NCBI RefSeq assembly: GCF_023148685.1
Contig: NZ_JAHXNL010000007.1
Location: 62,001 to 126,000, forward strand
DNA from: Georgenia sp. EYE_87
Lineage (GTDB): Bacteria > Actinomycetota > Actinomycetes > Actinomycetales > Actinomycetaceae
DNA: 64,000 bases
Direction: 5' to 3'
The notes under the pieces were generated by a model, which saw nothing but the letters and a program-made list of their open reading frames with translations, was not told the DNA's origin and did no database searches. Numbering within the stretch: the stretch's first letter is position 1; the number at the start of each line of letters is the position of its first letter. A program made the translations under genes and the position numbers. This document shows positions 1 through 43,964 of the stretch, piece after piece.

Positions 1-661
1 CGTGGAGGGCATCCCCCGGGCCGGTAACCACAACGGCGGGCGCCTGGCGTTCGGGCCCGACGGGTTCCTCTACGTCACCACCGGGGACGCCGGTGAGCCG
101 TCGAGCGCGCAGGACGTCGCCTCCCTCGGCGGGAAGATCCTCCGCGTCGACGCCGACGGCCGGCCGGCGCCCGGCAACCCGTTCGACGGCTCCCCGGTCT
201 GGTCCTACGGCCACCGCAACGTCCAGGGCCTCGGGTGGGACGCGGACGGGAGGATGTACGCCAGCGAGTTCGGGCAGAACACCTACGACGAGCTCAACCT
301 CGTGAAGCCGGGCGGCAACTACGGCTGGCCCGAGGTAGAGGGCGTGGGCGCTGTGGAAGGGTTCGTCGACCCGCTGCGCCAGTGGTCCACGGCCGAGGCC
401 TCGCCCAGCGGGATCGCCGTCACGGGCGGGCAGGTCTACCTGGCCGCGCTGCGCGGGGAGTCGCTGTGGCGGGTGCCGCTGACCGGGAACGGCGGCACGG
501 GCGAGCCGGCCCGGCTCCTGCAGGCGGAGTACGGGCGGCTGCGGGCGGTCGAGCCGGACGCGGCGGGCAACCTCTGGCTGCTCACGTCGAACCGGTCCCG
601 CGGCGAGCCGACGCCCGAGGACGACCGGATCGTGGTGGTGGATCCGGCCGACCTCGGCTGA
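1..661 (+). CDS. PQQ-dependent glucose/sorbosone dehydrogenase, C-terminal part (5' truncated by window)
   Basis: This is the C-terminal 219 residues of a soluble aldose dehydrogenase of the GSDH/sorbosone dehydrogenase beta-propeller family, which oxidises sugars using PQQ. Visible family motifs are HNGGRLAFGPDG with YVTTGD at the start, YGHRNVQGLGWD in the middle (the Arg-Asn pair contacts PQQ in the family) and GGNYGWPEVEG. The reading frame is open at the window edge, so the start, any signal peptide and the first propeller blades lie outside. Family assignment is firm; the sugar is unknown. Confidence 0.85.
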   Translation, partial: VEGIPRAGNHNGGRLAFGPDGFLYVTTGDAGEPSSAQDVASLGGKILRVDADGRPAPGNPFDGSPVWSYGHRNVQGLGWDADGRMYASEFGQNTYDELNLVKPGGNYGWPEVEGVGAVEGFVDPLRQWSTAEASPSGIAVTGGQVYLAALRGESLWRVPLTGNGGTGEPARLLQAEYGRLRAVEPDAAGNLWLLTSNRSRGEPTPEDDRIVVVDPADLG

Positions 662-711
662 GCAGAGGAGCAGCCGATTTCTGCTGACGCGTCAGGGGCT
701 CGGCGGGCTGC

Positions 712-1830
712 TTACTCGTCGTCGTGCCGGCGTCGGGCGGCGCGGTCACGCTTCGCCGGGACGTCCTCGGGCTTGGCGGAGGTCTCGTCGAGGTCCTGCG
801 TGCGTCCGCGGGATATGCGCAGGGCCCGGCCCTTCTCGATGTCCTCCTCGGCCTTCTCGGCCTTCTTGTCGCTGGCCCTGGTGTCCCGCGGCGGCAGCTG
901 GACGGACTCCTCGGCGGGGATGCCGGCCTGAAGCTGACGGCCGCGCTCGAGCTCGGCGTCGAACTCGGCGCCGAAGAGCAGCGCGAGGTTCAGAATCCAG
1001 AGCAGCAGCAGGAAGATGATGACGCCGGCCAGCGCGCCGTACGTCTCGCCGTAGCTCTCGCCGCCGATGGCACTGACGTACAGGCCCAGGGCGAGGGCGG
1101 CCAGGGCCGCCACGACGATCGCGATGAGGGCGCCGGGGCTGACCCACCGGAACTTCGGCATCTGCACGTTCGGGGTGACGTAGTACAGCAGGGCGATCGT
1201 GACCACCACGATGAGCAGCAGGACCGGCCACTTCGCGATGCCCCACACCAGGAGGGCCTGGTCGCCGAGCCCCATGAGCCCGCCGATCGCCTCGGCGACC
1301 GGTCCGGAGACCACGAGGATCACCGCGGCCATGGCGACGAGGATCAGCATCGCGAGGGTGAGCAGGTACATCACCGGGCGGAGCTTCCAGATCGGCCTGC
1401 CCTCGGGAACCTCGTACATGCGGTTCATCGCCCGGGAAAACGCGTTGACGTAGTTCGAGGCCGTCCACAGGGCCACCAGCAGACCGAGGAAGAGGCCCCA
1501 TCCTGCTCCCTCCACGGAGGTGATGCTCTCAAGGATCGGCTGGAGGCGCTCCATAGACTCCTGAGGGATGAACTCCGAGGCCATGTCGATGATCGTCTGC
1601 GTGCTCTGGCCCTGGCCCACGAGGCTCAGGATCGAGGCGAGCGCGATCAGCGCGGGGAAGAGCGACAGGATCGCGTAGTAGGTGAGGGCGGCCGCCAGGT
1701 CGGTGCACTGGTCGTCCAGGAACTCCCGGACGGTCTTGCGCAGGACATAGCCCCAGGAAGGTTTGCGGATGTCGCCGAGGGAGCCCGGCTTGGCCGGGTG
1801 GTCGGCATCCACTGTGCTCTTGCTGCTCAT
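712..1830 (-). CDS. YihY/virulence factor BrkB family inner-membrane protein
   Basis: A 372-residue polytopic membrane protein of the YihY/BrkB family, whose transport role is not settled. The N-terminus carries the family signature (DLAAALTYYAILSLFPALI), followed by about six hydrophobic segments and a charged, Lys/Glu/Arg-rich cytoplasmic tail of about 80 residues. I start it at the ATG at 1830, preceded by a strong GGAGGAGAA ribosome site, rather than at the longer open frame reaching 1914. It is divergent from the APC permease at 1965. The tail is longer than in minimal family members; its function is unknown. Confidence 0.88.
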   Translation of the reverse strand: MSSKSTVDADHPAKPGSLGDIRKPSWGYVLRKTVREFLDDQCTDLAAALTYYAILSLFPALIALASILSLVGQGQSTQTIIDMASEFIPQESMERLQPILESITSVEGAGWGLFLGLLVALWTASNYVNAFSRAMNRMYEVPEGRPIWKLRPVMYLLTLAMLILVAMAAVILVVSGPVAEAIGGLMGLGDQALLVWGIAKWPVLLLIVVVTIALLYYVTPNVQMPKFRWVSPGALIAIVVAALAALALGLYVSAIGGESYGETYGALAGVIIFLLLLWILNLALLFGAEFDAELERGRQLQAGIPAEESVQLPPRDTRASDKKAEKAEEDIEKGRALRISRGRTQDLDETSAKPEDVPAKRDRAARRRHDDE

Positions 1831-1964
1831 CGACGTTCTCCTCCGGTGGGCGGTCGCACCCCGCGTGGGCGCCCTGCTTGCTGAAAGCGTGCGGGGCGCC
1901 GCCAGGCGCGGCAACCGGAGCGGTCCCGCTTGCGGCGGTCCGCAGGCGGCCTCAACCTGTGCCG

Positions 1965-3326
1965 ATGACGACCAGCGCGCCCGCGGCCGGGCAGACCTCC
2001 CGACTGCGGAAGGGCATCACGCCCGCCCTCCTCTTCCTGTTCATCCTCGGAGACGTCCTCGGCGCCGGCGTCTACGCCCTCGTGGGCGTCCTGGCCGAGG
2101 AGGCGGGCGGGATGATGTGGGCGCCCCTGCTCCTCGCGATGGCCATGGCCCTCCTGACGGCGTCGAGCTACGCCGAGCTCGTGACCAAGTACCCCAAGGC
2201 CGGCGGCGCGGCGGTCTTCGCGCGCCGGGCCTTCGGCCGCCCGGTCATCTCCTTCCTCGTCGGCTTCTCGATGCTCGCGGCCGGGGTGACGAGCGCGGCC
2301 GGACTCGCGATCGCCTTCTCCGGCGACTACCTCTCCACCTTCGTCGACATGCCGACCGCGGTGGCCGCCCCCGTGTTCCTCGTCCTGCTCGCCCTGCTCA
2401 ACGCCCGCGGGATCAAGGAGTCCGTGCGCTCCAACGTGGTCATGACCGTCATCGAGGTCTCCGGCCTCGTGCTGGTCGTCGTCCTGGGCGCCGTCGCCGT
2501 CGGCGGCGGGCAGGGATCCCCCGGCCGGCTCACCGAGCTGCCCGACGGCGTGGGGCTCGGGGCCGCGGTGCTCGGCGGCGCGCTGATCGCCTTCTACTCC
2601 TTCGTCGGCTTCGAGGTCTCGGCCAACGTCGCCGAGGAGGTCCACGACGTCAGCCGCGTCTACCCGCGTGCCCTGTTCGGCGCGCTCGCCGTGGCCGGCG
2701 TCGTGTACCTGCTGATCGCCGTCGTCTCCGCGCTCGTCATCGACCCGGGCGACCTCGCCGGGTCCACCAGTCCGCTGCTCGACGTCGTCGCGGCCACCGG
2801 GATCGGCCTGCCCCCGTGGGCGTTCAGCGCGATCGCCCTCGTCGCCGTGGCGAACGGGGCGCTGCTGACGATGATCATGTCCAGCCGCATGGCGTACGGC
2901 ATGGCGGACGAGGGGCTGCTGCCCCACCCGCTGACCCGCGTGCTGCCGAACCGGCGCACGCCGTGGCTCGCCATCGTGCTCACCACGGCCCTCGCCGTCG
3001 GGCTCACGCTCGTCGGTGACCTGGCGGTGCTGGCCGAGACCGTGGTGCTCCTGCTGCTGTTCGTCTTCCTCAGCACCAACGTCGCGGTGCTCGTGCTGCG
3101 CAGGGACCGTGTCGACCACCAGCACTTCCGCACCCCGGCCGCTCTGCCGGTGCTCGCGGTGGTGTCCTGCCTCGTCCTCCTGACCCAGCAGTCGCTGGAG
3201 GTCTGGACCTACGGGCTGGCCATGCTCACCCTGGGCGTCGTGCTCCACCTGGTCACGCGGCGCACCGCCCACGCCCGCACCGTGCGGGCCGAGCAGGCAG
3301 AGGCCAGGGCCGCGGCCCGGAGGTGA
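1965..3326 (+). CDS. APC superfamily amino acid permease
   Basis: A 453-residue permease of the amino acid-polyamine-organocation superfamily, probably importing an amino acid or related compound. About 12 hydrophobic helices are visible, and TM1 has the typical unwound glycine motif (ILGDVLGAGVYALVG). The ATG at 1965 begins MTTSAPAAG, just before TM1; an in-frame extension back to 1878 is not protein-like. There is no Shine-Dalgarno; CAACCT lies 6 bases upstream, consistent with a leaderless start. The C-terminus is short and Arg/Ala-rich. The substrate cannot be told from the sequence. Confidence 0.86.
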   Translation: MTTSAPAAGQTSRLRKGITPALLFLFILGDVLGAGVYALVGVLAEEAGGMMWAPLLLAMAMALLTASSYAELVTKYPKAGGAAVFARRAFGRPVISFLVGFSMLAAGVTSAAGLAIAFSGDYLSTFVDMPTAVAAPVFLVLLALLNARGIKESVRSNVVMTVIEVSGLVLVVVLGAVAVGGGQGSPGRLTELPDGVGLGAAVLGGALIAFYSFVGFEVSANVAEEVHDVSRVYPRALFGALAVAGVVYLLIAVVSALVIDPGDLAGSTSPLLDVVAATGIGLPPWAFSAIALVAVANGALLTMIMSSRMAYGMADEGLLPHPLTRVLPNRRTPWLAIVLTTALAVGLTLVGDLAVLAETVVLLLLFVFLSTNVAVLVLRRDRVDHQHFRTPAALPVLAVVSCLVLLTQQSLEVWTYGLAMLTLGVVLHLVTRRTAHARTVRAEQAEARAAARR

Positions 3327-3406
3327 CCTCGGACGGCCGAACGCTGGCGAAGGTCGCCGCGGCAGGAGAAGGTGGACCTGTCGGACGGCGACGAGAGGTG
3401 GTGGGG

Positions 3407-4186
3407 ATGGCCCTCCTTCCCAGGCTGGCGGCCGTGGCCGCGGCGGGTGCGGGTGTTGCGCTCGGCGGCGTCGCCGCGGCCCTCGGCGTGATGCGCGGGG
3501 CGAAGCCGCTGCACCCCCGCGGCGCCGTGGTGCGCGCCCATCTCCACCTGCACTCCCGGCCCCCCGAGCTCGGCCTGGCGCTCGGCGTCCCGGGCCGCCG
3601 CGAGGCGCAGGTGCGGTTCTCCCGGGCGATCGGGCTGCCGGAGCTCCTGCCGGACATCCAGGGCCTGGCGATGCGGGTGCACGATCCGGACGGCCCCATC
3701 GACGTGCTGCTCGCCTCGACCGGGCGCGGGCCGCTGTCCCGGTTCGTCCTGACCATGAGGCGGCGGCCGGAGGACGGCGCCTTCACCAGCCTCATGCCGT
3801 ACCGGGGGCCGCGCGGTCCTGTGCTGCTCGGCGCCGAGCCGTCCCAGGACCCGCGGATCTACGTCCTCGAGTGGGCGACGCCGCAGGGCCCGTGGCGCAC
3901 CTTCGCCACGTTGGAGTGCGAGCAGCTCCCCGCCGACGCCGACGACGCCCCCATCCGGTTCCGGCCGCTCGCCAACGCCCCGCGCGGCCTCGGGACGTAC
4001 GAGTGGACGGAGCAGCTGCGTCGCTACGGCTACCGGTGGGCCGCGGCGGTCTCGCCCGCCCTGCCCAGGAGCGCGACGAGGAAGTCCGAGCCCTGGCCGA
4101 ACGGGCGGACGTCCCACGCGGAGAGCAGCACCTCCGGCTCCAGCCCGGCCGCTCCGGCGTCGGCCAGGAACTCCTCGAAGGCGTAG
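3407..4186 (+). CDS. Conserved actinobacterial protein (often labelled phosphodiesterase), with an odd C-terminal extension
   Basis: A 259-residue protein with an N-terminal membrane-like segment (LAAVAAAGAGVALGGVAAAL), then a conserved core: KPLHPRG, VRFSRAIGLPE, DIQGLAMRVHD, DVLLASTGRG. It resembles a conserved actinobacterial family of unknown activity, possibly related to the catalase-like fold. The ATG at 3407 follows a G-rich site; a GTG at 3323 would overlap the permease stop by 4 bases but adds a non-conserved leader. Similarity seems to stop near YEWTEQLRRYGYR, after which about 50 residues are antisense to the convergent methyltransferase (157-base overlap). A lost stop or a frameshift near 4030 is plausible. 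Confidence 0.6.
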   Translation: MALLPRLAAVAAAGAGVALGGVAAALGVMRGAKPLHPRGAVVRAHLHLHSRPPELGLALGVPGRREAQVRFSRAIGLPELLPDIQGLAMRVHDPDGPIDVLLASTGRGPLSRFVLTMRRRPEDGAFTSLMPYRGPRGPVLLGAEPSQDPRIYVLEWATPQGPWRTFATLECEQLPADADDAPIRFRPLANAPRGLGTYEWTEQLRRYGYRWAAAVSPALPRSATRKSEPWPNGRTSHAESSTSGSSPAAPASARNSSKA

Positions 4187-4659
4187 CCGCGCCCCGCGCC
4201 GAAGCCGACCGCCGCCCGGCCACCGGCCCGCAGGTGGGCGGCGAAGCGGCGCAGCACCTCACGGCGGGTGCTCGGCGCGAGGAAGGTCATGACGTTGCCC
4301 GCGCACACGATCGCGTCGAAGCCCTCGGTGATCCCGCGGGCCGGCAGGTCGAGCTCGGCGAGGTCACCCACGAGCCAGGTGGGACCCGGGTGGTCCTCCT
4401 CCGCGGCCGCGACCAGCACCGGGTCGACGTCGACGCCGACCACCTCGTGACCGGCGGCGGCGAGCGCGGAGCCCACCCGGCCGGGCCCGCAGCCGGCGTC
4501 GAGGATCCGTGCGCCGCGCGGCACCATCGCGTCCACCAGCCGCGCCTCGCCCGCCAGGTCGGCCCCGGCGGCCGCCATGGTGCGGAACCGCTGGACGTAC
4601 CAGTGCGAGTGGTCGGGGTTGGACTCCGTGATGCGCTGCCAGCCGCTCGGCTCGGGCAT
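4030..4659 (-). CDS. Class I SAM-dependent methyltransferase
   Basis: A 209-residue methyltransferase with a single Rossmann-like domain. Motif I, DAGCGPG, is at residues 54-60; the acidic strand-2 end (GVDVDP) and the post-motif WLVGDLAELDLP follow, placing it with Methyltransf_11/25-type enzymes that act on small molecules. A strong purine-rich ribosome site (GGAGAAGAAGGAG) precedes the ATG. It converges on the preceding plus-strand gene with a 157-base overlap, and the HAD phosphatase gene lies 39 bases upstream in the same direction. The methyl acceptor is unknown. Confidence 0.88.
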   Translation of the reverse strand: MPEPSGWQRITESNPDHSHWYVQRFRTMAAAGADLAGEARLVDAMVPRGARILDAGCGPGRVGSALAAAGHEVVGVDVDPVLVAAAEEDHPGPTWLVGDLAELDLPARGITEGFDAIVCAGNVMTFLAPSTRREVLRRFAAHLRAGGRAAVGFGAGRGYAFEEFLADAGAAGLEPEVLLSAWDVRPFGQGSDFLVALLGRAGETAAAHR

Positions 4660-4698
4660 GGGATCTCCTTCTTCTCCGGTCGCGCGGTCAGCCCGACG

Positions 4699-5493
4699 CT
4701 ACCCCTCGAGCCCGCGCTGCCATCCCGGCAGGTCCGCGACGCCGTCGAGGACGGCGTCCGGTGCGACCGCTGACCGCTCGAGCAACTCCGGCCGGAACTT
4801 GCCGGTGCGCACCAGCACGCCGGTGAGCCCGAGCGCCTGGGCGGCGAGCACGTCGGAGTCGAGGTCGTCGCCGACCATCACCGCCTCGGCGGCATCGGCA
4901 CCGAGCATGCCGAGCGCCGCGTCGAACAGGCCGCGCGCGGGCTTGCCCACCACCACCGCCTCGACGTCCGCCGCCGCCTCGAGCGCCGCGACGAACGCCC
5001 CGGCGTCGAGCTGGAGCCCGGCGTCGGTGCGCCAGTACATGCTCCGGTGCATGGCGACCAGCGGCGCGCCCTCGTGGAGCGCCGCGAAGGCCCGGTTGAG
5101 CGCCGCGTAGCCGAGCTCGGGGCCGCCGCCACCCAGGACGACGACGTCGATCTCCCGGTCCTCCGGCCCGACCAGGCGCACGCCGGGGAGGTCGGCTGCG
5201 ACGTCGCCGCTGCTCAGGAGCAGGCACCGGGCGCCGGGGTGGTGCTCGGCCAGGTACGCGGCCGTGGCGATCGGGGCGGTGACGATCAGCTGGTCCTCGA
5301 CGTCGAAGCCGGCCTTGCGCAGCTCCTCACCGATGGCGGCCCGGGTCCGGGAGGTGGTGTTGGTGACCAGCGCGACCCCCAGTCCGGCGGCGCGCAGGGC
5401 GTCGTACGCCTCGACCGCGCCGGGCAGCGCGCGCCACGAGACGGTCAGGACGCCGTCGATGTCGAGCAGCACGGCACGCATGTTCTCGGCCAT
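4699..5493 (-). CDS. HAD-IIA family sugar/nucleotide phosphatase (NagD/LHPP-like)
   Basis: A 264-residue haloacid dehalogenase-superfamily hydrolase, subfamily IIA. Motif I LLDIDGVL gives the nucleophile Asp11 and acid/base Asp13; motif II is VTNTTS; the motif III lysine is in GKPA; motif IV is GDDLDSD. The long cap inserted between motifs II and III is typical of NagD and LHPP-like enzymes. MAENMRAVLL starts at 5493. It lies 39 bases upstream of the methyltransferase on the same strand, so co-transcription is possible. Substrate unknown. Confidence 0.88.
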   Translation of the reverse strand: MAENMRAVLLDIDGVLTVSWRALPGAVEAYDALRAAGLGVALVTNTTSRTRAAIGEELRKAGFDVEDQLIVTAPIATAAYLAEHHPGARCLLLSSGDVAADLPGVRLVGPEDREIDVVVLGGGGPELGYAALNRAFAALHEGAPLVAMHRSMYWRTDAGLQLDAGAFVAALEAAADVEAVVVGKPARGLFDAALGMLGADAAEAVMVGDDLDSDVLAAQALGLTGVLVRTGKFRPELLERSAVAPDAVLDGVADLPGWQRGLEG

Positions 5494-13286: not shown

Positions 13287-13413
13287 GTGCGGGGGGAGGG
13301 CTTCTATGTCACTGTGAGGCGTCTGACGACGTCGTCGGACCAATACCCGGCGGCAGGGGATCGCCGGGAGGACGCGGGCAGCAGTGCCCCACGGACCTGG
13401 AAGGTGTGGGTCG

Positions 13414-14823
13414 ATGAGGAGATCGGTCGCTCGTCTGGTGGTCAGCGCCTCCGCCGTCGCTCTGGTGCTCGGGGCGTGCGCGCAGGGGACCGGAGGCGGT
13501 TCCGACGGCGGGACCGGGGCCGGCGGGGACGGTGCGGGGGAGTTCGACCCCGAGGCCGAGCTCAGCGGCCCGCTCGACGTCATGGGCTTCGGTGCGGGCG
13601 ACGAGATCGCCACGACCCGCGTGGAACGCGCGGAGGAGGCCCTCGGCGAGGACGTCGAGGTGCAGCTGATCGAGGGCGACCTCGACATCCAGCAGTTCCT
13701 CTCCGCCGTCGCCTCCGGGGAGCCGCCGGAGCTCATCTACGCCAACCGCGACCAGATCGGCACGTTCGCCTCCCGCGGCGCGATCATCCCGCTCACCCGG
13801 TGCATCGCCGGGGAGGGCATCGTCACGGAGGACTTTCGCGAGCCGGCCCTGGACCAGGTCACGTTCGACGACGAGGTCTACGGCATCCCCGAGTTCAACG
13901 CCGTCCAGGTCACCATGGCCAACTCCGAGCTGCTCGACGCCGCCGGGCTGGGCATCGAGGACGTCAACGGCTCGGACTGGGAGGCCGTCAGCGCCGCCAA
14001 CGAGGCCCTGAAGCAGGGCGACGGGAACTCGCTGAGTGTCATCGGGTACGACTCCAAGCTGCCCGAGTTCCTGCCCCTGTGGGCGCACGCGAACGGCACC
14101 GACCTCATCTCCGAGGACGGCAGGACGGCCCAGCTGAACGACCCCAAGGTGGTCGAGGCGCTCGAGTGGGCGCTGTCGATCTACGACGACCAGGGCGGGT
14201 TCGCGGCCGTCAAGGCCTTCCGCGACTCGGCGGACTTCTTCGGCGCCGGCAACCAGTTCGCCACGAACACCCTCGGGGCGATGCCGATGGAGCAGTGGTA
14301 CATCAACGTCCTCAACGACGTCTCTCCCGACGCCCCGATGGCGTTCGACGCGGTGCACGACAAGAACGGCGACCCGGTCGCGTACGCCAGCGGGTCGGCG
14401 TGGGCCATCCCGAAGGGCACCGAGAACCCCGGCGCCGCGTGCCGCTGGGCGCGCGTGATGACCGAGGTCGACAGCTGGGTGGCGGCCGCCGAGGAGCGCA
14501 AGCGGCTGCGCGCCGAGGAGGGCAAGCCGTTCACGGGTGTGCTGACCGGGAACGAGGCCGCCGACGAGGCGGTGCGCGAGCTCGTCGAGCCGAGCGGCGA
14601 CGAGGACTGGGACGCCGGGGTGACGGCCATGTACGAGGCGAACGACAACACCTTCTCGCTGCCGGCCAACCCGGCCGACGCCGAGTTCAAGACCGCCTGG
14701 CAGGACGCGGTCAACAGCGTGCTGAACGGGCAGGCCGAGCCGCAGGAGGCCCTGGACGCGGCACAGGCCACGGCCCAGGCCGCGCTCGACGACGCCTGGG
14801 AGAAGTGGGAGCAGGAGGGCTAG
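13414..14823 (+). CDS. Sugar ABC transporter substrate-binding lipoprotein
   Basis: A 469-residue extracytoplasmic solute-binding protein, family 1. It has a lipoprotein signal: Arg-Arg start, hydrophobic stretch, and lipobox LGAC with the lipidated Cys, then a Gly/Asp-rich linker. The mature part shows SBP_1 features (ELIYANRDQIGTFASRGAIIPL, YGIPEFNAVQVTMANSELLDAAGL). AAGGTG precedes the ATG at 13414. Two permease genes follow at 3 bases and with a 4-base overlap, forming an operon without its ATPase, which is usually the shared MsiK in actinobacteria. The nearby glucuronidase suggests, but does not prove, an oligosaccharide or glucuronide substrate. Confidence 0.9.
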   Translation: MRRSVARLVVSASAVALVLGACAQGTGGGSDGGTGAGGDGAGEFDPEAELSGPLDVMGFGAGDEIATTRVERAEEALGEDVEVQLIEGDLDIQQFLSAVASGEPPELIYANRDQIGTFASRGAIIPLTRCIAGEGIVTEDFREPALDQVTFDDEVYGIPEFNAVQVTMANSELLDAAGLGIEDVNGSDWEAVSAANEALKQGDGNSLSVIGYDSKLPEFLPLWAHANGTDLISEDGRTAQLNDPKVVEALEWALSIYDDQGGFAAVKAFRDSADFFGAGNQFATNTLGAMPMEQWYINVLNDVSPDAPMAFDAVHDKNGDPVAYASGSAWAIPKGTENPGAACRWARVMTEVDSWVAAAEERKRLRAEEGKPFTGVLTGNEAADEAVRELVEPSGDEDWDAGVTAMYEANDNTFSLPANPADAEFKTAWQDAVNSVLNGQAEPQEALDAAQATAQAALDDAWEKWEQEG

Positions 14824-14826
14824 GCC

Positions 14827-15783
14827 ATGGCCGCCGTCGTCGACTCCGCCGCGGCGGAGGAGCGAGCCCGGGCGGTGGCACGGCGGAGGAGGGGGCGGCG
14901 CGAGACGCGCGCCGCCCTGCTCTTCATCAGCCCGTGGATCGTCGGGTTCCTCGTCTTCACCGCCTGGCCCGTGCTCAACAGCGCCTACCTGTCCCTGACG
15001 GACTACGACGTCATCAACGACCCGAACTTCGTCGGGCTGGACAACTACCGTCGTCTCTTCGAGGACGAGAAGATCGCGCTGGCGCTGGGCAACACCTTCT
15101 TCTACGCCGCGATCCAGGTGCCGCTGTACATCGTGGTCTCCCTCGGGCTGGCCATGCTGCTCAACCAGGCGGGCCGGGCGGCCGGCTTCTTCCGGACCGC
15201 GTTCTACCTGCCGAACATGACCCCGCCCGTCGCCGTCGGCGTGCTGCTGCTCCTGGTGTTCAACGGGCAGAACGGGCTGATCAACGAGGTGCTGGGGTTC
15301 TTCGGCATCGACGGGCCGAACTGGACCACCGACCAGATGTGGATCAAGCCGGCCATCATCCTCACGAGCCTGTGGTCGGTGGGCTCGTCCGTGATCATCC
15401 TGCTCGCTGCGCTCCGCAACGTGCCGCAGGAGCTCTACGACGCCGCCCGCGTCGACGGCGCGAACGGGTGGCAGCGCACCGTGCGGATCACCATCCCGAT
15501 GATCTCCGGCGCCCTGTTCTTCGTGTTCATCGTCAACTCGATCGCCGCCTTCCAGACCTTCACCGAGGCGTACACGGCGTTCTTCGGCTCGGGCAACACG
15601 ACGTACAGCAACGACGCGGCGCTGTTCTACGTGATCTACCTGTTCCAGCAGGCGTTCGAGTTCCTCAACATGGGCTACGCCTCGGCGATGGCCTGGGTGC
15701 TCTTCGTGATCATCCTGATCATCACCCTCATCCAGCTGAAGGTGTCCAAGCGGTTCGTCTACCTCGAGGGGGAGCAGCGATGA
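14827..15783 (+). CDS. Sugar ABC transporter permease (MalF/UgpA type)
   Basis: A 318-residue permease of a CUT1-type carbohydrate importer. A basic N-terminus is followed by six predicted helices. The EAA loop that contacts the ATPase is ELYDAARVDGANGWQRT followed by ITIPM. It starts 3 bases after the binding-protein stop and ends in a 4-base ATGA overlap with the next permease, so translation is probably coupled. It works as a heterodimer with the product of 15780-16736. Confidence 0.93.
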   Translation: MAAVVDSAAAEERARAVARRRRGRRETRAALLFISPWIVGFLVFTAWPVLNSAYLSLTDYDVINDPNFVGLDNYRRLFEDEKIALALGNTFFYAAIQVPLYIVVSLGLAMLLNQAGRAAGFFRTAFYLPNMTPPVAVGVLLLLVFNGQNGLINEVLGFFGIDGPNWTTDQMWIKPAIILTSLWSVGSSVIILLAALRNVPQELYDAARVDGANGWQRTVRITIPMISGALFFVFIVNSIAAFQTFTEAYTAFFGSGNTTYSNDAALFYVIYLFQQAFEFLNMGYASAMAWVLFVIILIITLIQLKVSKRFVYLEGEQR

Positions 15784-16736
15784 GTACCCCGTCCCTCGAC
15801 CTCGATCGGGTCCGCGAGGCGCCCGTCGTCCCGACCGCCGGCGGCCCCGCCGGGACGCCGGGCGCGGGCTCGCCCGGCCCCCGGCGCAACGGGGACCGCC
15901 GCCCGACCCGGTGGACGGCCGGGCGGGTCGCGATCGTCGCGGCGCTCGTCGCCCTCACGGTCGTCTTCGTCTACCCGTTCGTGTGGCTGGTCAGCGCCTC
16001 GTTCAAGCCGCGCGGGGAGGTCTTCGACAACAAGCTGATCCCGGAGACCTTCACCTTCCAGAACTACCTCGACGTGTGGGCCGAGGCGCCGATGCTCCTC
16101 TGGCTCGGCAACACCCTGCTCGTCACGGTCCTCGCGGCGGTCTCGGTGACCCTCTCCAGCGCCCTGGTGGCGTGGGGGTTCGCCTACTTCCGGTTCAGGG
16201 GGCGCGACGCGCTCTTCGGCCTGGTGCTGGCCACGATGATGCTGCCCGGCGCGGTGACGATGGTGCCGGTCTTCCTCATCTGGAACTCGCTCGGCATGGT
16301 CAACACCCTCACGCCGCTGTGGGCCGGCAACCTCTTCGGCAGCGCCTTCTACATCTTCCTGCTCCGGCAGTTCTTCATGGGGCTGCCGCGGGAGACGTTC
16401 GAGGCGGCGAAGATCGACGGCGCGAACAACTGGACCATGTTCACCCGCATCGCCCTGCCGCTGACCCGGCCGGCGATGATCGTCACCCTCATCTTCGAGT
16501 TCCAGGCGGCGTGGACCGACCTCATGCGGCCGCTGATCTACCTGCGCGACTCGGACAAGTTCACGATCCCGCGTGGCCTCAAGGCGCTGCTGGACCAGTT
16601 CGGCTTCGGCGGCGAGTGGCACTGGGAGATCGTCATCACCGCCAGCGTCATCACGACCGTCCCGATGATCGTGCTGTTCTTCATCGGCCAGCGGCACTTC
16701 GTGCAGGGGATCGCCACCACGGGCGCGAAGGGCTGA
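15780..16736 (+). CDS. Sugar ABC transporter permease (MalG/UgpE type)
   Basis: A 318-residue second permease. The N-terminal 45 residues are a Pro/Gly/Arg-rich cytoplasmic tail, then six helices. The EAA motif ETFEAAKIDGANNWTM followed by IALPL is intact, and VSASFKPRGEVFDNKLIP before the second helix is typical of CUT1 MalG-like subunits. The ATG overlaps the stop of the partner gene. The gene ends 9 bases from the convergent uidA stop. Confidence 0.93.
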   Translation: MSTPSLDLDRVREAPVVPTAGGPAGTPGAGSPGPRRNGDRRPTRWTAGRVAIVAALVALTVVFVYPFVWLVSASFKPRGEVFDNKLIPETFTFQNYLDVWAEAPMLLWLGNTLLVTVLAAVSVTLSSALVAWGFAYFRFRGRDALFGLVLATMMLPGAVTMVPVFLIWNSLGMVNTLTPLWAGNLFGSAFYIFLLRQFFMGLPRETFEAAKIDGANNWTMFTRIALPLTRPAMIVTLIFEFQAAWTDLMRPLIYLRDSDKFTIPRGLKALLDQFGFGGEWHWEIVITASVITTVPMIVLFFIGQRHFVQGIATTGAKG

Positions 16737-16745
16737 GCCGGCCGC

Positions 16746-18515
16746 TCATCCCTTCCAGCGCCTGCGCAGCGCGTGGGCCGCCGCCTTGGGCTGCCGGTCG
16801 CGGGTGAAGGCGCCCTTCTTGTTCCCGCCCACCCGCATGATCCCCGACGTGGTGGCGAAGTCGGCGAAGTTCCATACGTGCTCGCCGACGACGGCCTCGA
16901 CGCTGTCGAACACCCGGTGGTTGGTGTCGAGGTAGGCGATCTGGTACTCCTCGGACCACGGCTCGGGGACGATGCTGTGCTGGCCCGGATAGGTGTCGGC
17001 GCCGTACTCGGTGATGATGATGGGTTTGCCCTCGGTGGACCACCCGTCGAGCTCGGCCTTGAAGTCGTGCTCGGCCGCCTCGAGGTCGCCGGTGTTGACG
17101 TACCAGCCGTAGTACCGGTTGAGCATGAGGACGTCGCCGAACTGGGAGACGCGGCACTTGCCGTGCGGCGCGAGCATGACGTTGACGAACCCGACGGGGC
17201 GGGTCGGGTCGGCCTGGCGGGCGACGTCGAAGAGCGGGCGGAAGTAGTTCTCGGCCGCCTCGGTCTCGGACTCCGGCTCGTTGGCGATGCTCCAGAGCAC
17301 GACGCTGGGGTGATTCTTGTCGCGGGCGATCAGCTCGCGGATGGCCTGGGCGTGGACCTCCTGGGTGGCGTCGTTGGCGGTCTCCGGTGAGAAGGTGGTG
17401 TAGCCCTGGCCGCCGAAGATTCCGCCGCCGATCCCCATGTTGAGCCCGACCGCGGCGGTCTCGTCGATGACGACGACGCCCAGGCGGTCGGCGTGCTCGA
17501 GGACGTCCTCGGAGTAGGGGTAGTGGGAGGTGCGGAAGGAGTTGGCGCCGATCCAGTCCAGCAGCTGGAAGTCGTTGACGAGGTGGGCGTCGTTGTGGGC
17601 CTTGCCGATGACCGCGTGGTCCTCGTGCATGCCGAAACCCTTGAAGTAGAACGGCTCGCCGTTGATGAGGAACTCGGTGCCGCGCACCTCCACGGTTCGC
17701 ACGCCCACCTTCAGGTGGTAGCTGTCCGCCGTCGCGCCGCCGTCGTCGAGCCTGACCTCCAGGTCGTAGAGGTACCCGTCGCCGGGGGCCCAGCGGTGCA
17801 CGTCCGCCACGCTGAGGGTGCCGGAGGCGCCCGAGCCCGCGGCCACCTCGGCGCCGTCGGCGTCGCGCAGCACGACGGCGACGGCGGCGCTGCCGCCCTC
17901 GGTCTCCACGGTGTACTCCACCGTGCCGGTGGTGCCGTCCAGCCCCGTGACCACGGTGATGTCGGAGACGAACGCCCGCGGGGTGCTGTACAGCCAGACC
18001 GAGCGGTGCAGGCCGGCGTAGTTGAAGAAGTCGTGCCAGTACCGCTGCTTCCTGCCGCTGGCGGTCTCCTCGATCGCGCCGGGGGGGATGGACTGGAAGC
18101 TGAGCGTGTTGTTGACGACGGCGGTGATGCGCACCTCCTCCCCGGGGGTGACCAGGTCGGTGATGTCCGCCTCGAAGGGGGTGTAGCCGCCCTCGTGCTC
18201 GGCGACCTGGGTGTCGCCCACCCACACCACCGCCCGGTGGGTGGCGGACTCGAAGTTGAGCACGATGCGCTCGCCCGCCCAGCCGCGCGGCACGCGGACC
18301 ACGGTCTGGTACCAGAGGTCGCCGAAGTAGTCGCGCACCGCGGCGTCGGCGACGACGTCGTTGAAGCTCGCCGGCACGGCCATCAGCTGCGTGCCGGGCA
18401 GCGGGCCGCGGTACCAGCCAGCCCGACGCCCCTCGCCGTCCGGGTCGAGGGCGAACCTCCACAGCCCGTCGAGCCGTTTCTTCTCCCGGCTGGCGGTGTC
18501 CTGAGGGCGCAGCAT
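16746..18515 (-). CDS. uidA: Beta-glucuronidase (GH2)
   Basis: A 589-residue GH2 enzyme that hydrolyses beta-D-glucuronides, close in length to E. coli UidA (603). The N-terminus (MLRPQDTASREKKRLDGLW) matches the family start. The acid/base Glu is in NEPE at residue 413 and the nucleophile in ITEYGAD at residue 503, almost the same numbering as E. coli E413/E504. The NxK motif that reads the glucuronate carboxylate is present (NKK, near VGGNKKGAFTRDR). There is no signal peptide, so it acts in the cytoplasm on imported glucuronides. It lies 44 bases downstream of the carrier gene; the stop faces the ABC operon. Confidence 0.95.
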   Translation of the reverse strand: MLRPQDTASREKKRLDGLWRFALDPDGEGRRAGWYRGPLPGTQLMAVPASFNDVVADAAVRDYFGDLWYQTVVRVPRGWAGERIVLNFESATHRAVVWVGDTQVAEHEGGYTPFEADITDLVTPGEEVRITAVVNNTLSFQSIPPGAIEETASGRKQRYWHDFFNYAGLHRSVWLYSTPRAFVSDITVVTGLDGTTGTVEYTVETEGGSAAVAVVLRDADGAEVAAGSGASGTLSVADVHRWAPGDGYLYDLEVRLDDGGATADSYHLKVGVRTVEVRGTEFLINGEPFYFKGFGMHEDHAVIGKAHNDAHLVNDFQLLDWIGANSFRTSHYPYSEDVLEHADRLGVVVIDETAAVGLNMGIGGGIFGGQGYTTFSPETANDATQEVHAQAIRELIARDKNHPSVVLWSIANEPESETEAAENYFRPLFDVARQADPTRPVGFVNVMLAPHGKCRVSQFGDVLMLNRYYGWYVNTGDLEAAEHDFKAELDGWSTEGKPIIITEYGADTYPGQHSIVPEPWSEEYQIAYLDTNHRVFDSVEAVVGEHVWNFADFATTSGIMRVGGNKKGAFTRDRQPKAAAHALRRRWKG

Positions 18516-18559
18516 GACGATCCTCTCCGTAGGTGGCGGCTTGTCGGTGGGAGGGGTGG

Positions 18560-19993
18560 TCAGGGACCCGTCGCGGCGGCGGCGCGCCGGCTGGCGATCT
18601 CCGCGGTGATCTCGCGGAACTTGGCCTCGGTGAGCGGGTAGAAGAACATGACCGAGATCGACAGCAGGGCGAACCCGGCGATGATGCCCCCCGTCCAGAG
18701 CTGGATGTTCTCGGCCACCCCGGGCTCCTGGGGCTCGCTGGCCGAGGCCCGGGCCGCGCTGAAACCGGCCCAGGTGAGGGCGAAGCCACCGACGAACCCG
18801 CCGATCGCCTGGCCCATCTTGCGGGTGAAGGAGAACACCGCGTAGGTGGTCCCCTCGGTGCGGTTGCCGGTGCGCCACTCGCCGTACTCGACGGTGTCCG
18901 CCTCCAACGCCCAGGTGAGCGTGTTGGCGCCGTTGATACCCAGCCCCATGAGGAAGAACGCCACCGGCCCGAGCAGCGGCACCGACGACAGGGGCGAGAA
19001 CGCGAGCACGGCGGCGCCGACGATCACCGCGACACCGAAGATCACGAACCCGGAGCGCTTGCCGATGGTGCGCACGAGCGTCGGGATGAGCGGGCCGACG
19101 ACGAGGATGGCGATGGTCTGGGCCAGGATGTTCCAGGCGATGTACTGCGCGTTCTGCTGGACGTAGATGGCGATGTAGGAGCCCAGCGTGCTGAGCGCGG
19201 TCACGGCGGTGAGGAAGAGGACCGCCCCCAGGGAGAGCCACATCAGCGGCTTGTTGGTGGTCAAGGTCCGCAGGCTGTCCCTGAGGGAGACGGGCGTCGC
19301 CGGCCGGGCGACCTGCTCGCGCGTGCTGGAGACCAGGAACAGGTACAGGACCATGCCGATGACCACGAAGGCGGCCGTGGTGAGGAACAACGACCTCTGG
19401 AGCGCCACCGGGTTGTCCACGTTCGCCCGGATCTGCGGGGCGATGGCGAAGGCGAGGCCGAGGATGGCCAGTGCGGCACCGTACCCCCGGAAGACGGCGA
19501 GCCGAGAGCGCTCGACCGGGTCCTGGGTCAGGGCAGGCGCCATCGACCCGTAGGCGATGTTCACGAGGGTGTAGAACACCGAGCCCATCAGCAGGTAGGT
19601 GGCATACATGTAGGCGACCGCGGCGCCGCCGGAGATCTCGGGGAAGAACGTCCTCGCCGAGTAGATGGCCATGCTCGCCAGCAGCAGGGGCAGGGAGAAC
19701 CAGAGGATGAACGGGCGAAACTTGCCCAGCTTCCCGGGCCGCTTGGCGTCGACGAGACGTCCGGCGATGAGATCCGTGAAGGCGTCGACGAACCGCACGA
19801 CCAGGAACATCGTGCCGACCACGGCGCCCTCGATCCCGACGACGTTCGTGTAGTACAGAATCAGGAAGAACGACGCCATCGTGAAGGACAGGTTGTTCGC
19901 CGCGTCCCCTGCCGCGTACGCGAGGTAGTTGCGGACCGTGAGCTTCCTGGGGGCGACGATCCCGCCCGCCGCGGGTGACGCCGTGGTGTCCAT
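18560..19993 (-). CDS. uidB: Glycoside-pentoside-hexuronide:cation symporter (glucuronide carrier)
   Basis: A 477-residue MFS transporter of the GPH family (MelB/XylP/UidB). Family marks are NYLAYAAGDAANNLSFTMASF in TM1, the Asp-rich RFVDAFTDLIAGRLVDAKRPGKLGKFRPFILW loop after TM2, and 12 hydrophobic segments. Pairing directly upstream of uidA, as in E. coli, identifies it as the likely glucuronide importer. The ATG at 19993 follows CAGGAG. The kinase gene at 20037 lies 43 bases upstream and may share the transcript, though it is functionally unrelated. Confidence 0.9.
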   Translation of the reverse strand: MDTTASPAAGGIVAPRKLTVRNYLAYAAGDAANNLSFTMASFFLILYYTNVVGIEGAVVGTMFLVVRFVDAFTDLIAGRLVDAKRPGKLGKFRPFILWFSLPLLLASMAIYSARTFFPEISGGAAVAYMYATYLLMGSVFYTLVNIAYGSMAPALTQDPVERSRLAVFRGYGAALAILGLAFAIAPQIRANVDNPVALQRSLFLTTAAFVVIGMVLYLFLVSSTREQVARPATPVSLRDSLRTLTTNKPLMWLSLGAVLFLTAVTALSTLGSYIAIYVQQNAQYIAWNILAQTIAILVVGPLIPTLVRTIGKRSGFVIFGVAVIVGAAVLAFSPLSSVPLLGPVAFFLMGLGINGANTLTWALEADTVEYGEWRTGNRTEGTTYAVFSFTRKMGQAIGGFVGGFALTWAGFSAARASASEPQEPGVAENIQLWTGGIIAGFALLSISVMFFYPLTEAKFREITAEIASRRAAAATGP

Positions 19994-41702: not shown

Positions 41703-42352
41703 TGGACCGGCGCGAGCTGCGACCGGTCCCCCCGGTCACCGGCCCCACGGAGGGCACCGTCGCGGGGGCGGTGCCCGGCTTCCGCCTGCTCGTCGTCGGA
41801 GAGTCGACGGCGGCCGGCACCGGCGCCCCGGACCACGACACCTCGCTCGTCGGGCACCTCGCCCGCGAGCTCGCCGCGGACGGCCAGCAGGTGGTCTGGC
41901 GGGCGGCCGGCCGCAACGGGGCGCGCGCCCGGGCCGTGGCTCGCGAGCTCGTGCCGACGGCGGCGGACTGGGACCCCACCCACGTCGTCGTGCTCACCGG
42001 TATCAACGACCTCCAGCTCGGCTGGCGGCCCGGCGCCTGGGCGACCGACGTCGCGGCGCTCCTGCGCGAGATCGCCGCCACCTGGCCCGCGGCCCGCGTC
42101 GTCATCAGCGGACTGCCCGACGTCACCGCCATCCCCGCGATCCCTGCGCCGTTGCGCCGCGTCCTCGCGCGCAAGGCCCGCCGGTTCGGGTGGGCTACGG
42201 AGCGGGCGGCCGCGGGGACCGGCGCGGTGTACGTCCCGGTGGACCACCTGCCGCTGACCCGGGATGACTTCTCGAGCGACGGGATGCACCCCGGCCCCGC
42301 CGGGTATGCGCGCTGGGCCCGGGCCCTCGCCCCGGCGGTCGCCAATTCCTGA
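41702..42352 (+). CDS. SGNH/GDSL hydrolase
   Basis: A 216-residue serine esterase-like enzyme. The blocks are GESTAAGTG (nucleophile Ser), AAGRNGARA (Gly), TGINDLQLG (Asn in GxND) and DGMHPGPAGY (Asp-His pair). It has no signal peptide, so it is cytoplasmic. The ATG shares a base with the previous stop (TGATG), so translation is coupled. Substrate unknown. Confidence 0.9.
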   Translation: MDRRELRPVPPVTGPTEGTVAGAVPGFRLLVVGESTAAGTGAPDHDTSLVGHLARELAADGQQVVWRAAGRNGARARAVARELVPTAADWDPTHVVVLTGINDLQLGWRPGAWATDVAALLREIAATWPAARVVISGLPDVTAIPAIPAPLRRVLARKARRFGWATERAAAGTGAVYVPVDHLPLTRDDFSSDGMHPGPAGYARWARALAPAVANS

Positions 42353-42429
42353 GGCGAACTTACCGAGCCGAGCCCGGTCTTACGAGACTTAAGCCTCCGA
42401 TTTTGGGGACGGGGGACTCGCGGGCTCAC

Positions 42430-42456
42430 TAGCCTGGTTCGGATCGGCAAAGGAGC
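42430..42456 (+). promoter_or_regulatory. Promoter and ribosome site of the PD-(D/E)xK-like gene
   Basis: TAGCCT at 42430-42435 is a plausible -10, and AAAGGAG just before 42456 is a strong ribosome site 7 bases before the ATG at 42463. The surrounding 110 bases are more AT-rich than the flanking genes. Confidence 0.45.
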
Positions 42457-42462
42457 TGGCAA

Positions 42463-43866
42463 ATGACCGAGGAAACGTGGCACGAGGCGCGTCTGATTCC
42501 CACGTCTGGAATTAATGGTGCGGAAGAGCAGGAGCGCCGGGCGACGTCTGCCCTGCTTGCTGTCATGACGGCCGTGAAGGAGTTCGGGCGGACGCTGACG
42601 AAATCCCTTGGCGCGCCCGCAGGGACCTTGGAGACCTACATCGAGGTGCCGTTCCAGCTGGGAGAGCGCCGTCTCTACCCCGACGGCCTGATCCGGGTGC
42701 GCCGCGGGCCACGGTCCTGGACCGCGCTGGTCGAGGTGAAGACTTCCAGCAACCCTCTGCAGTCCGAGCAGCTGGAGAACTATCTGGATATCGCCAAGGA
42801 GAACGGGTTCGACGCCGTCCTGACCATCTCGAACGAGATCGCTGCCGTTGAGGGGCAGCATCCGACGAGGGTGGACAAGCGAAAGCTTCGAAAGGTTGCG
42901 CTCCACCACCTGTCGTGGACGAAGATCCTCACCGAGGCGGTGATGCAGAAGGAGTTCCGCGGCGTCGCAGATCATGATCAGGCCTGGATCCTCGGCGAGC
43001 TGATCCGCTATCTGGAGCACCCGCGCTCTGGCGCGATGGAGTTCGAGGACATGGGCGATTCCTGGGTACAGACGCGAGATGCCGTGCGGGCGGGGACACT
43101 CCGCGTCACGGACAAGGGGCTCGCCGAGACGGTCGCCAGATTCGATGCCCTGCTTCGATACGTGAGTCTTCAGCTCGGGCGGCGTCTGGGTGCCGAAGTC
43201 ACACCGGTTGTGTCAAGGAAGGAGCTCGCGGAACCAGCGATCAGGTCGAGCGCCTTGGCGGCGAGCCTGGTGGAGACCGGCACCTTGTGCGGCGAGATTC
43301 GCATTCCTGACACAGTGGGAAACCTGGTGGTGACCGCCGATCTGCGAGCTCGGAGCCTGACGTGCCACGTCGACATCGAGGCGCCCAAGGAGGGGCGGCC
43401 GAAGACTCGGGTGAACTGGCTTCTGCGCCAGCTCAAGGAGGCGCCCGGACACATCCGGGTGGAGGTCTTCTCCGCCCGAAGCCGCGGCGCCGGCGCCGCG
43501 GACCTTCTGGTCGCGGCCCGCGAGGACCCGATGCGGCTTCTGCCCGACCCGGCCCGTGAGCCCCGGTCCTTCCGCGTTGCTCTGTCGGCCCCCATGGGGA
43601 CGAAGCGAGGGCGCGGGCGCGGATCCTTCATCGACTCCGTCAGTGACCTGATCGACGACTTCTACGGAGAGGTGATGCAGCACCTGAAGGCATGGTCGGC
43701 CGCACCTCCCCGGATGCGGTCGGAGGCGGGCCTGTCTGCCGAGGAGCCCAGTGTGGCCGGCTCCGGCCTGTCCTCGACGGCGTTCTCCTCACAGGACGGA
43801 CCGGAGATGCCCGAGTCCCCGGCGGAGGTGCCGGAACTCGAACCTGCGCGTTCCCTCTCTGGTTGA
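42463..43866 (+). CDS. Unknown 467-residue protein with an N-terminal PD-(D/E)xK nuclease-like core
   Basis: I do not recognise a named family. Residues 57-125 look like a restriction-endonuclease fold: TYIEVPF (Glu61), LYPDGLIRV (Asp74), then LVEVKTSSNPLQSEQLENYL (Glu91, Lys93), the typical acid-(acid)xK arrangement, followed by DAVLTISNE. Residues about 145-330 are mixed alpha/beta with a PRSGAMEFEDMGDSW segment; 330-420 contains basic PKTRVNWLLRQLKEAPG and GTKRGRGRGSFIDSV; the last 45 residues are low-complexity. Codon choice is less G/C-biased than its neighbours (ATT, AAA, TCT, GGA appear), suggesting transfer or relaxed selection. It could be a nuclease in defence or repair. It stands alone. 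Confidence 0.6.
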   Translation: MTEETWHEARLIPTSGINGAEEQERRATSALLAVMTAVKEFGRTLTKSLGAPAGTLETYIEVPFQLGERRLYPDGLIRVRRGPRSWTALVEVKTSSNPLQSEQLENYLDIAKENGFDAVLTISNEIAAVEGQHPTRVDKRKLRKVALHHLSWTKILTEAVMQKEFRGVADHDQAWILGELIRYLEHPRSGAMEFEDMGDSWVQTRDAVRAGTLRVTDKGLAETVARFDALLRYVSLQLGRRLGAEVTPVVSRKELAEPAIRSSALAASLVETGTLCGEIRIPDTVGNLVVTADLRARSLTCHVDIEAPKEGRPKTRVNWLLRQLKEAPGHIRVEVFSARSRGAGAADLLVAAREDPMRLLPDPAREPRSFRVALSAPMGTKRGRGRGSFIDSVSDLIDDFYGEVMQHLKAWSAAPPRMRSEAGLSAEEPSVAGSGLSSTAFSSQDGPEMPESPAEVPELEPARSLSG

Positions 43867-43900
43867 GGAGCCGGCAAGGCTGCAACTGGCGGCAAGGCGT

Positions 43901-43919
43901 GGCCCCGCGGGGCGGGGCC
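43901..43919. terminator. 8-bp perfect stem hairpin
   Basis: GGCCCCGC-GGG-GCGGGGCC lies 34 bases after the stop of the PD-(D/E)xK-like gene; no T-tract. TACGTT at 43924 is a possible -10 for the gluconokinase gene. Confidence 0.55.
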
Positions 43920-43964
43920 CGGGTACGTTCTGGGAAGCATCAGCCACCCGACGGGAGCGTCACC

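Follow-up and report, generated by a model that had tools for sequence, protein, structure and literature searches.

The PD-(D/E)XK superfamily is recognised by motifs I to IV, as defined in PMC1913061. Closest in predicted structure to the protein considered here are AspBHI, MspJI, EcoT38I and FokI, which share a similar catalytic signature and are the best structural matches of its residues 1-168, yet the likeness stops at the nuclease core and a nuclease profile finds no sequence match in the PDB. VRR_NUC (PF08774), the Tn7 TnsA-like N-terminal domain (PF08722) and Tox-REase-7 (PF15649) overlap its motif region, residues 64-125, but all three fall below cut-off and leave the remainder of the protein uncovered. 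The low-confidence model of its C-terminal part resembles, in the order of helices and strands, the type III secretion chaperone/YbjN/TY-Chap superfamily. There are also the 'TerD family proteins' of Streptomyces and Rhodococcus, which are homologous to residues 3 or 4 to 408-435 of the protein (39-45% identity) and have the same catalytic residues; at the N-terminus they have in addition a TerD domain followed by a linker, about 250 residues in all, that our protein lacks.

It has long been puzzling what TerD proteins sense and what they do. TerD is listed among ligand-binding domains that possibly sense a nucleoside-type signal (PMC7824862), and a TerD-dependent anti-phage system with an McrBC-like part is mentioned in PMC3710099. 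The fused clade links a nuclease to the TerD of such Ter stress and anti-phage systems, whereas the lone form has no TerD.

It is the lone form that is found in the window, by which we mean the whole stretch of 64,000 nucleotides of Georgenia sp. EYE_87 DNA that was analysed (Table 1). We propose that the product of this gene is a DNA nuclease under regulation, that the gene travels as lone cargo, and that it probably serves in conflict with mobile DNA such as phages, a reading to which we give about an even chance. Much firmer is the narrower statement that it encodes an acquired nuclease-fold protein of a family that has no name in four family libraries or in the open-access literature searched; of this we are nearly certain.

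The 467-residue reading frame of the initial annotation is confirmed at its coordinates, with a start codon, a stop codon and a good Shine-Dalgarno site. The claim that its composition is distinct holds in part. GC at third codon positions (GC3) is 0.810, whereas the 14 other reading frames measured, all lying between 35.7 and 48.9 kb (picked by position, four of them with approximate starts), have values of 0.916-0.981; this is the claimed excess of A and T. The spacer on the 5' side is AT-richer, as claimed (42353-42462, GC 0.618), but the spacer on the 3' side is not, its GC being like that of the surroundings (43867-43964, 0.745). Elsewhere in the window a sugar-uptake cluster (13384-19993), partly of lower GC (0.67-0.72), looks ordinary; its genes presumably encode a solute-binding protein, two permeases, a beta-glucuronidase-like protein and a sugar-symporter-like protein.

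The gene is real, conserved and under purifying selection. Compared with one Jiangella, one Nocardioides and three other relatives, its dN/dS is well below 1, and in the nuclease core about 0.1 against Jiangella, ratios that are rough because dS is so high, at about 1 or above. The minimum of dN lies in the nuclease core and middle module, the maximum in the tail in four of the five pairwise comparisons.

Table 1. Features of the nuclease gene and its insertion, in positions of the window
Feature	Position	Strand	Basis
Complete CDS, lone PD-(D/E)xK protein, 467 aa	42463..43866	+	ORF of 467 codons, from the ATG at 42463 to the stop codon that closes at 43866, and homologues
Shine-Dalgarno-like AAGGAG, 7 bases 5' of ATG	42450..42455	+	Sequence
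Predicted nuclease core, residues 1-165: helix, three strands, helix, strand (full-length model)	42463..42957	+	Models, low pLDDT
E61, invariant acidic residue ahead of the PD motif	42643..42645	+	52/52 covering rows
P73-D74 (motif II)	42679..42684	+	52/52 covering rows
E91-V92-K93 (motif III)	42733..42741	+	E and K in 53/53 covering rows
Q103 and Y107, helix after motif III (motif IV position)	42769..42783	+	53/53 covering rows
Helical middle module, residues 166-215	42958..43107	+	Conservation about equal to that of the nuclease core; L177, E179, Y183 and W201 invariant
C-terminal alpha/beta domain, residues 216-412, type III chaperone/YbjN-like in the model	43108..43698	+	Model, with no sequence support
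Variable tail, residues 413-467, with no modelled structure	43699..43863	+	Full-length model, dN
Extent of insertion relative to the empty site of congener G002 (L105)	42320..43881	.	BLASTN blocks stop at 42319 and restart at 43882

The case for a nuclease begins with conservation. In an alignment of 54 rows, 23 of 412 core positions are invariant wherever they are covered, including E61, P73, D74, E91, K93, Q103 and Y107, and E24 of the first helix is glutamate in 51 of the 52 rows that cover it. The motif residues keep this invariance down to about 30% identity. From one alignment of the family (A1), ten of 52 homologue stretches, near-duplicates or truncated or broken, had been dropped (L003, L006, L007, L046, L047, L048, L062, L063, L066 and L082). 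Asp74 and Glu91-x-Lys93, in which the initial annotation saw the pattern of restriction endonucleases, lie where it placed them and vary in no covering row, a conservation well above what chance would give. P73-D74 supplies the acidic residue of motif II and E91-x-K93 makes up motif III, and the core residues fit the superfamily motifs as PMC1913061 defines them.

The structural models agree with this, and both are of low confidence, so that the fold is read from them with caution. The full-length model (mean pLDDT 55) has a helix at residues 19-48, strands at 57-66, 69-81 and 86-93, a helix at 101-113 and a strand at 117-123, with pLDDT there of about 40. The model of residues 1-168 (mean pLDDT 52) reaches block means of 66-82 for residues 91-150, stays below 50 for residues 40-84, D74 included, and lacks the first strand of the core. 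Foldseek places AspBHI at the top for this second model (E 4.1e-4, prob 0.99), and the seven best rows consist of AspBHI, three chains of EcoT38I, two of MspJI, and FokI, with query TM-scores of 0.34-0.44 and one row alone below E 0.001. Given the full-length model, Foldseek finds no match at E 0.001 or better, and the kinase and other rows that it returns are dismissed as chance. VIA-align pairs the nuclease core with EcoT38I (Z 7.0, rmsd 3.9, 97 residues) and AspBHI (Z 6.5, rmsd 4.6, 118 residues), Z up to 7 being middling for this tool. Motif conservation and the Foldseek match thus bear out the suggested nuclease core, and together with the low-confidence models the conservation supports a predicted PD-(D/E)xK nuclease fold.

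The protein was said to match no known family, and none has turned up. All its Pfam and NCBIfam matches are below the curated cut-offs, and neither PADLOC (PADLOC-DB 2.0.0) nor PHROGs yields a family at E up to 10. The three Pfam matches on residues 64-125 are sub-threshold; VRR_NUC, for instance, scores 15.3 bits against a gathering score of 23.8. Among members of the family (Pfam, E up to 1), VRR_NUC appears below threshold in 18 of 43, and Tox-REase-7 and TnsA-like in five each, while phrog_5702, a Holliday junction resolvase, matches weakly in 11 of 25. Amid some chance families, these sub-threshold Pfam and PHROG matches point to the nuclease fold. The nuclease parts of 25 members give one match in PADLOC (E 0.03). 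PDB sequence searches with the protein and with the family and nuclease profiles return chance-level rows or none, and 60 genomes searched for VRR_NUC members, for a profile comparison, contained none.

The C-terminal domain goes beyond the initial annotation. Its fold is read from the full-length model. There residues 216-412 (pLDDT about 75) begin with a helix and three strands, after which helices and strands alternate (helix, strand, helix, strand, helix); extra helices precede the first strand. The structure of AmyR runs helix, three strands, helix, two strands, helix (PMC5398634), an order that is alike apart from the additional helices of the model. VIA-align with the full-length model gives Spa15 at Z 6.3 (rmsd 3.8, 121 residues) and YbjN at Z 6.2 (rmsd 4.5, 127 residues), and the matches to these two, at Z 6.1-6.3, span residues 195-412. 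Type III secretion chaperones and YbjN proteins abound in the list, several of them near the top and all with Z below 8; the top row is an uncharacterised protein of B. subtilis (Z 6.8). Sequence profiles lend the link to actinobacterial YbjN no support: hhalign gives the C-terminal part a probability of 0.4% against 27 such sequences, where the nuclease part, as control, gives 0.1%, and the VIA-align Z is middling. A Pfam search of the C-terminal part finds no YbjN or TY-Chap match, and a PDB sequence search with its profile finds chance-level rows or none. We treat the type III chaperone/YbjN-like fold, which has low-confidence support from the model, as a lead.

How did the gene come to stand where it does? 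A homologue is absent from all 8 congeners and all 28 other family members searched. In the 59 genomes made up of these, the genome itself and 22 others of the order, it occurs only in the genome itself and in one of the same order (G042). It recurs in 56 of 394 genomes of a class sample, its own counted, and a profile search of a phylum sample finds it in 20 of 396, two of which (G519, G756) hold fragments only. Among named relatives of full length, those of Jiangella species are closest, with 71-74% identity; Marmoricola has a truncated sequence that is 77% identical across residues 1-269, and a Nocardioides homologue reaches 68%. In the nearest congener, G002, the genes for SGNH hydrolase and gluconokinase are adjacent, which constitutes an empty site. 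Between the BLASTN blocks there are 47 unmatched bases in that congener and 1,562 in the window; therefore the insertion is of about 1.5 kb and holds the nuclease gene alone, set between the SGNH hydrolase gene and the gluconokinase gene. On the grounds of absence from congeners and family, the empty site and GC3, the gene was acquired horizontally, as had been surmised. The initial annotation would have been contradicted by a gene of normal composition that is inherited vertically, or by a fold lacking the nuclease core, and neither is what we find.

The ends of the insertion have no long flanking repeats, only 9-base GC-rich matches, and an insertion with visible repeats is rejected. The sequence ATGACCGAGG, common to the starts of the nuclease gene and the gluconokinase gene, was considered as a junction mark and rejected, because the native upstream region of gluconokinase sits right of the insert. 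Recent transfer from a sampled Jiangella is also rejected, dS being 1.16 to L002, the sole Jiangella compared with the window. Another congener has a spacer of about 0.6 kb between its SGNH hydrolase and gluconokinase genes (G007:C1:3982101-3982718), longer than that of G002; insertions may recur at this place. Lone-form copies in two other genomes (G413:C165 and G359:C11; L062, L063) are broken by frame changes, and in one fusion (G310:C1, L080) TerD sits in another frame. Unless these are sequencing errors, they suggest a gene that cells can do without or that burdens them. L081 (G278, 30% identity) and L123 (G720), from two distant lineages, are joined in one deep branch of the family, and its placement is unsure because the branches are long.

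The TerD-fused sister form is likewise new with respect to the initial annotation. In one clade, comprising Streptomyces, Rhodococcus and others, a TerD domain stands N-terminal to the same protein within a single polypeptide. Pfam recognises it in six of eight homologues (E 1e-35 to 8e-49; L080 and L081 go unmatched), and a profile made from six TerD regions finds it in frame at all 21 loci labelled fused, those six included; at L080 the profile finds TerD, but in a different frame. Solved structures of TerD are matched, at E 1e-36, by the one such region compared with them. The profile finds no TerD at any of 29 lone loci (10 Jiangella, 18 others and the window), at 10 lone loci outside the class or on the viral contig L084. 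The window protein has no TerD match in Pfam, and a search of its genome (G000) finds none. Among 27 chosen genomes with the lone form, this genome included, as well as G413 and G359 with their broken copies, TerD is absent from 26, and so the lone form does not need TerD.

A tree of 54 rows explains the fused rows by one change of state, L080 excluded; the rows were cut at 440 residues, and the tree, made by a quick method, is unrooted and has long branches. The fusion is probably derived, because lone forms occur outside the class too, with the caveat of the unrooted tree. One genus (g96) has both forms, lone in G190 and G351 and fused in G133 and G200, which indicates separate acquisitions. 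The joining of TerD to the nuclease hints at how the nuclease may be controlled.

Homologues occur on 11 plasmid records, six of Streptomyces and five of Rhodococcus, each within a gene of about 2 kb, which ten of the records call 'TerD family protein'; the eleventh record has no annotation. In nine annotated plasmids examined, a gene set of ThiF, Mov34/JAB and DUF6602 lies near the fusion in two, both from Rhodococcus, and RES-domain genes lie near it in two. The fusion regions on Rhodococcus plasmids are L158:1832-9287, L041:9251-16148 and L159:4653-9284. Directly 5' of the fusion on pLP337 and pR8L1 are two hypothetical proteins, 86-87% identical between the plasmids, and those of pLP337 match no solved structure. 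The IMG/VR contig L084 (7 kb; 3-5167) holds a lone homologue at the contig end, where its reading frame is open. The opposite strand has a terminase-like gene, which is 34% identical to terminases of Arthrobacter phages (E 3e-49), and a capsid-like gene with 25-27% identity to capsids of Mycobacterium phages. This contig may be a phage, satellite or prophage edge carrying the nuclease. A protein query of the phage record collection finds no homologue, residues 56-210 find only chance-level rows in phage records at E up to 10, and three single-protein queries of viral contigs find nothing.

A conserved operon partner is rejected, for outside Jiangella the lone form has no general partner. The widest neighbour clusters there are an ORF group at five loci, 2.4-5.9 kb off, and a weak group at three, the first 25 clusters per group having been considered and the related pair L059/L060 set aside. 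The upstream neighbour in Jiangella resembles dTDP-4-dehydrorhamnose reductase and is rejected as a partner. At two loci from different families, L050 (7369-9117) and L061, a protein of 582-613 residues adjoins the lone form, in opposite orientations and with 55% identity between the pair. It appears at no other of 53 loci scanned, save for a short second match in L061; it has weak PADLOC matches to PDC-S41 and AbiO (E about 1e-5) and no match in a PDB search. It is a possible partner, or the pair possibly share an insertion habit.

Defence genes beside homologues, which the initial annotation proposed to look for, give a mixed picture. A PADLOC scan of 133 ORFs near the gene at 19 loci (L046, one of these, being Jiangella by genus code) gives 17 families with E of 1e-8 or lower, each matching one or two of the ORFs. 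Some are generic and a few are strong, such as PDC-S48 (E 6e-63), PDC-S09 (E 6e-36) and mad3 (E 6e-29); of ten of the ORFs looked at, three had PADLOC matches. Against defence, the neighbour Pfam families are mostly metabolic, judged by raw counts of the 25 commonest of 134 with no background set.

Our proposal may now be put more fully. The protein would be a metal-dependent PD-(D/E)xK DNA nuclease, with the D74/E91/K93 site, aided by E61, Q103 and Y107, in its core. The helical middle and the chaperone/YbjN-like domain would most likely restrain the nuclease and trigger it through the binding of a protein, a peptide or a small ligand, and in one clade the N-terminal TerD would add a further layer of control. 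The likeliest role would be lone-gene defence against phages or other mobile DNA; the plasmid records, the IMG/VR contig and the two forms within g96 are indications of mobility. What we infer is that the protein is catalytically active, that it acts on DNA, that TerD or the C-terminal domain controls it, and that it serves in defence. TY-Chap domains are reported from NAD+-ADP-ribose conflict systems (PMC9503650); this and the sensing role suggested for TerD in PMC7824862 fit a gated nuclease, and neither proves it. The boldest version, a single-gene immune nuclease family of Actinomycetota in which a chaperone-like domain gates a restriction-type nuclease, under TerD control in one lineage, we think unlikely as a whole.

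Repair is the main rival to defence. A DNA-repair or stress nuclease would process damaged or branched DNA in the service of genome maintenance, with TerD coupling the fused clade to chemical stress. The gene looks resident in Jiangella, because neighbours are shared at nine of ten loci and GC3 is near the local median at most, and this fits housekeeping or repair; the exception is L002, where GC3 is low relative to the surroundings. (To call a homologue lowest in GC3 within its locus is a biased comparison, the neighbour genes having been chosen by high GC3.) Purifying selection there, the weak likeness to the Holliday-junction-resolvase PHROG and to VRR_NUC, and the annotation of the fusions with 'response to stress' point the same way. 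A gene of genome maintenance sits poorly, however, with patchy presence across class and phylum, with carriage on plasmids, with frame-broken copies in G413 and G359, and with loci outside Jiangella that widely share no neighbour of any kind. We regard repair as doubtful, if worth serious weight.

Restriction that depends on modification, as in type IV-like systems, would have the C-terminal region read modified DNA and the core cut nearby, after the manner of AspBHI and MspJI. These two are respectively the top Foldseek match and one within the seven best. Such an enzyme would need no methyltransferase partner, and of the 134 families found in neighbouring genes the 25 commonest include no methyltransferase. 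The structural matches cover the nuclease core only, however, and the C-terminal model is chaperone-like, unlike a base-reading domain, of which SRA is an example; we consider this improbable. A member of the fold that is catalytically idle, or directed at RNA, and that acts by protein-protein contacts like the N-terminal domain of RPB5, is in our judgement more improbable still. RNA polymerase chains E are numerous in the VIA-align list, with Z up to 6.5, and we take them to be RPB5, as one row is titled. RPB5 is an inactive version of the fold, according to PMC1185551. The catalytic residues of our family are nevertheless invariant in 54 rows, which an idle fold would not require.

If the family does defend cells, then it is a compact, one-gene system that is missing from the four family libraries searched. 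Its occurrence with and without TerD, around a conserved nuclease, offers a direct test of the part that TerD plays. Should the proposal of a TerD-controlled nuclease be true, TerD in the fusion would be a sensor that directly switches the cutting of DNA, and the Ter system would gain a DNA-cutting output within one polypeptide.
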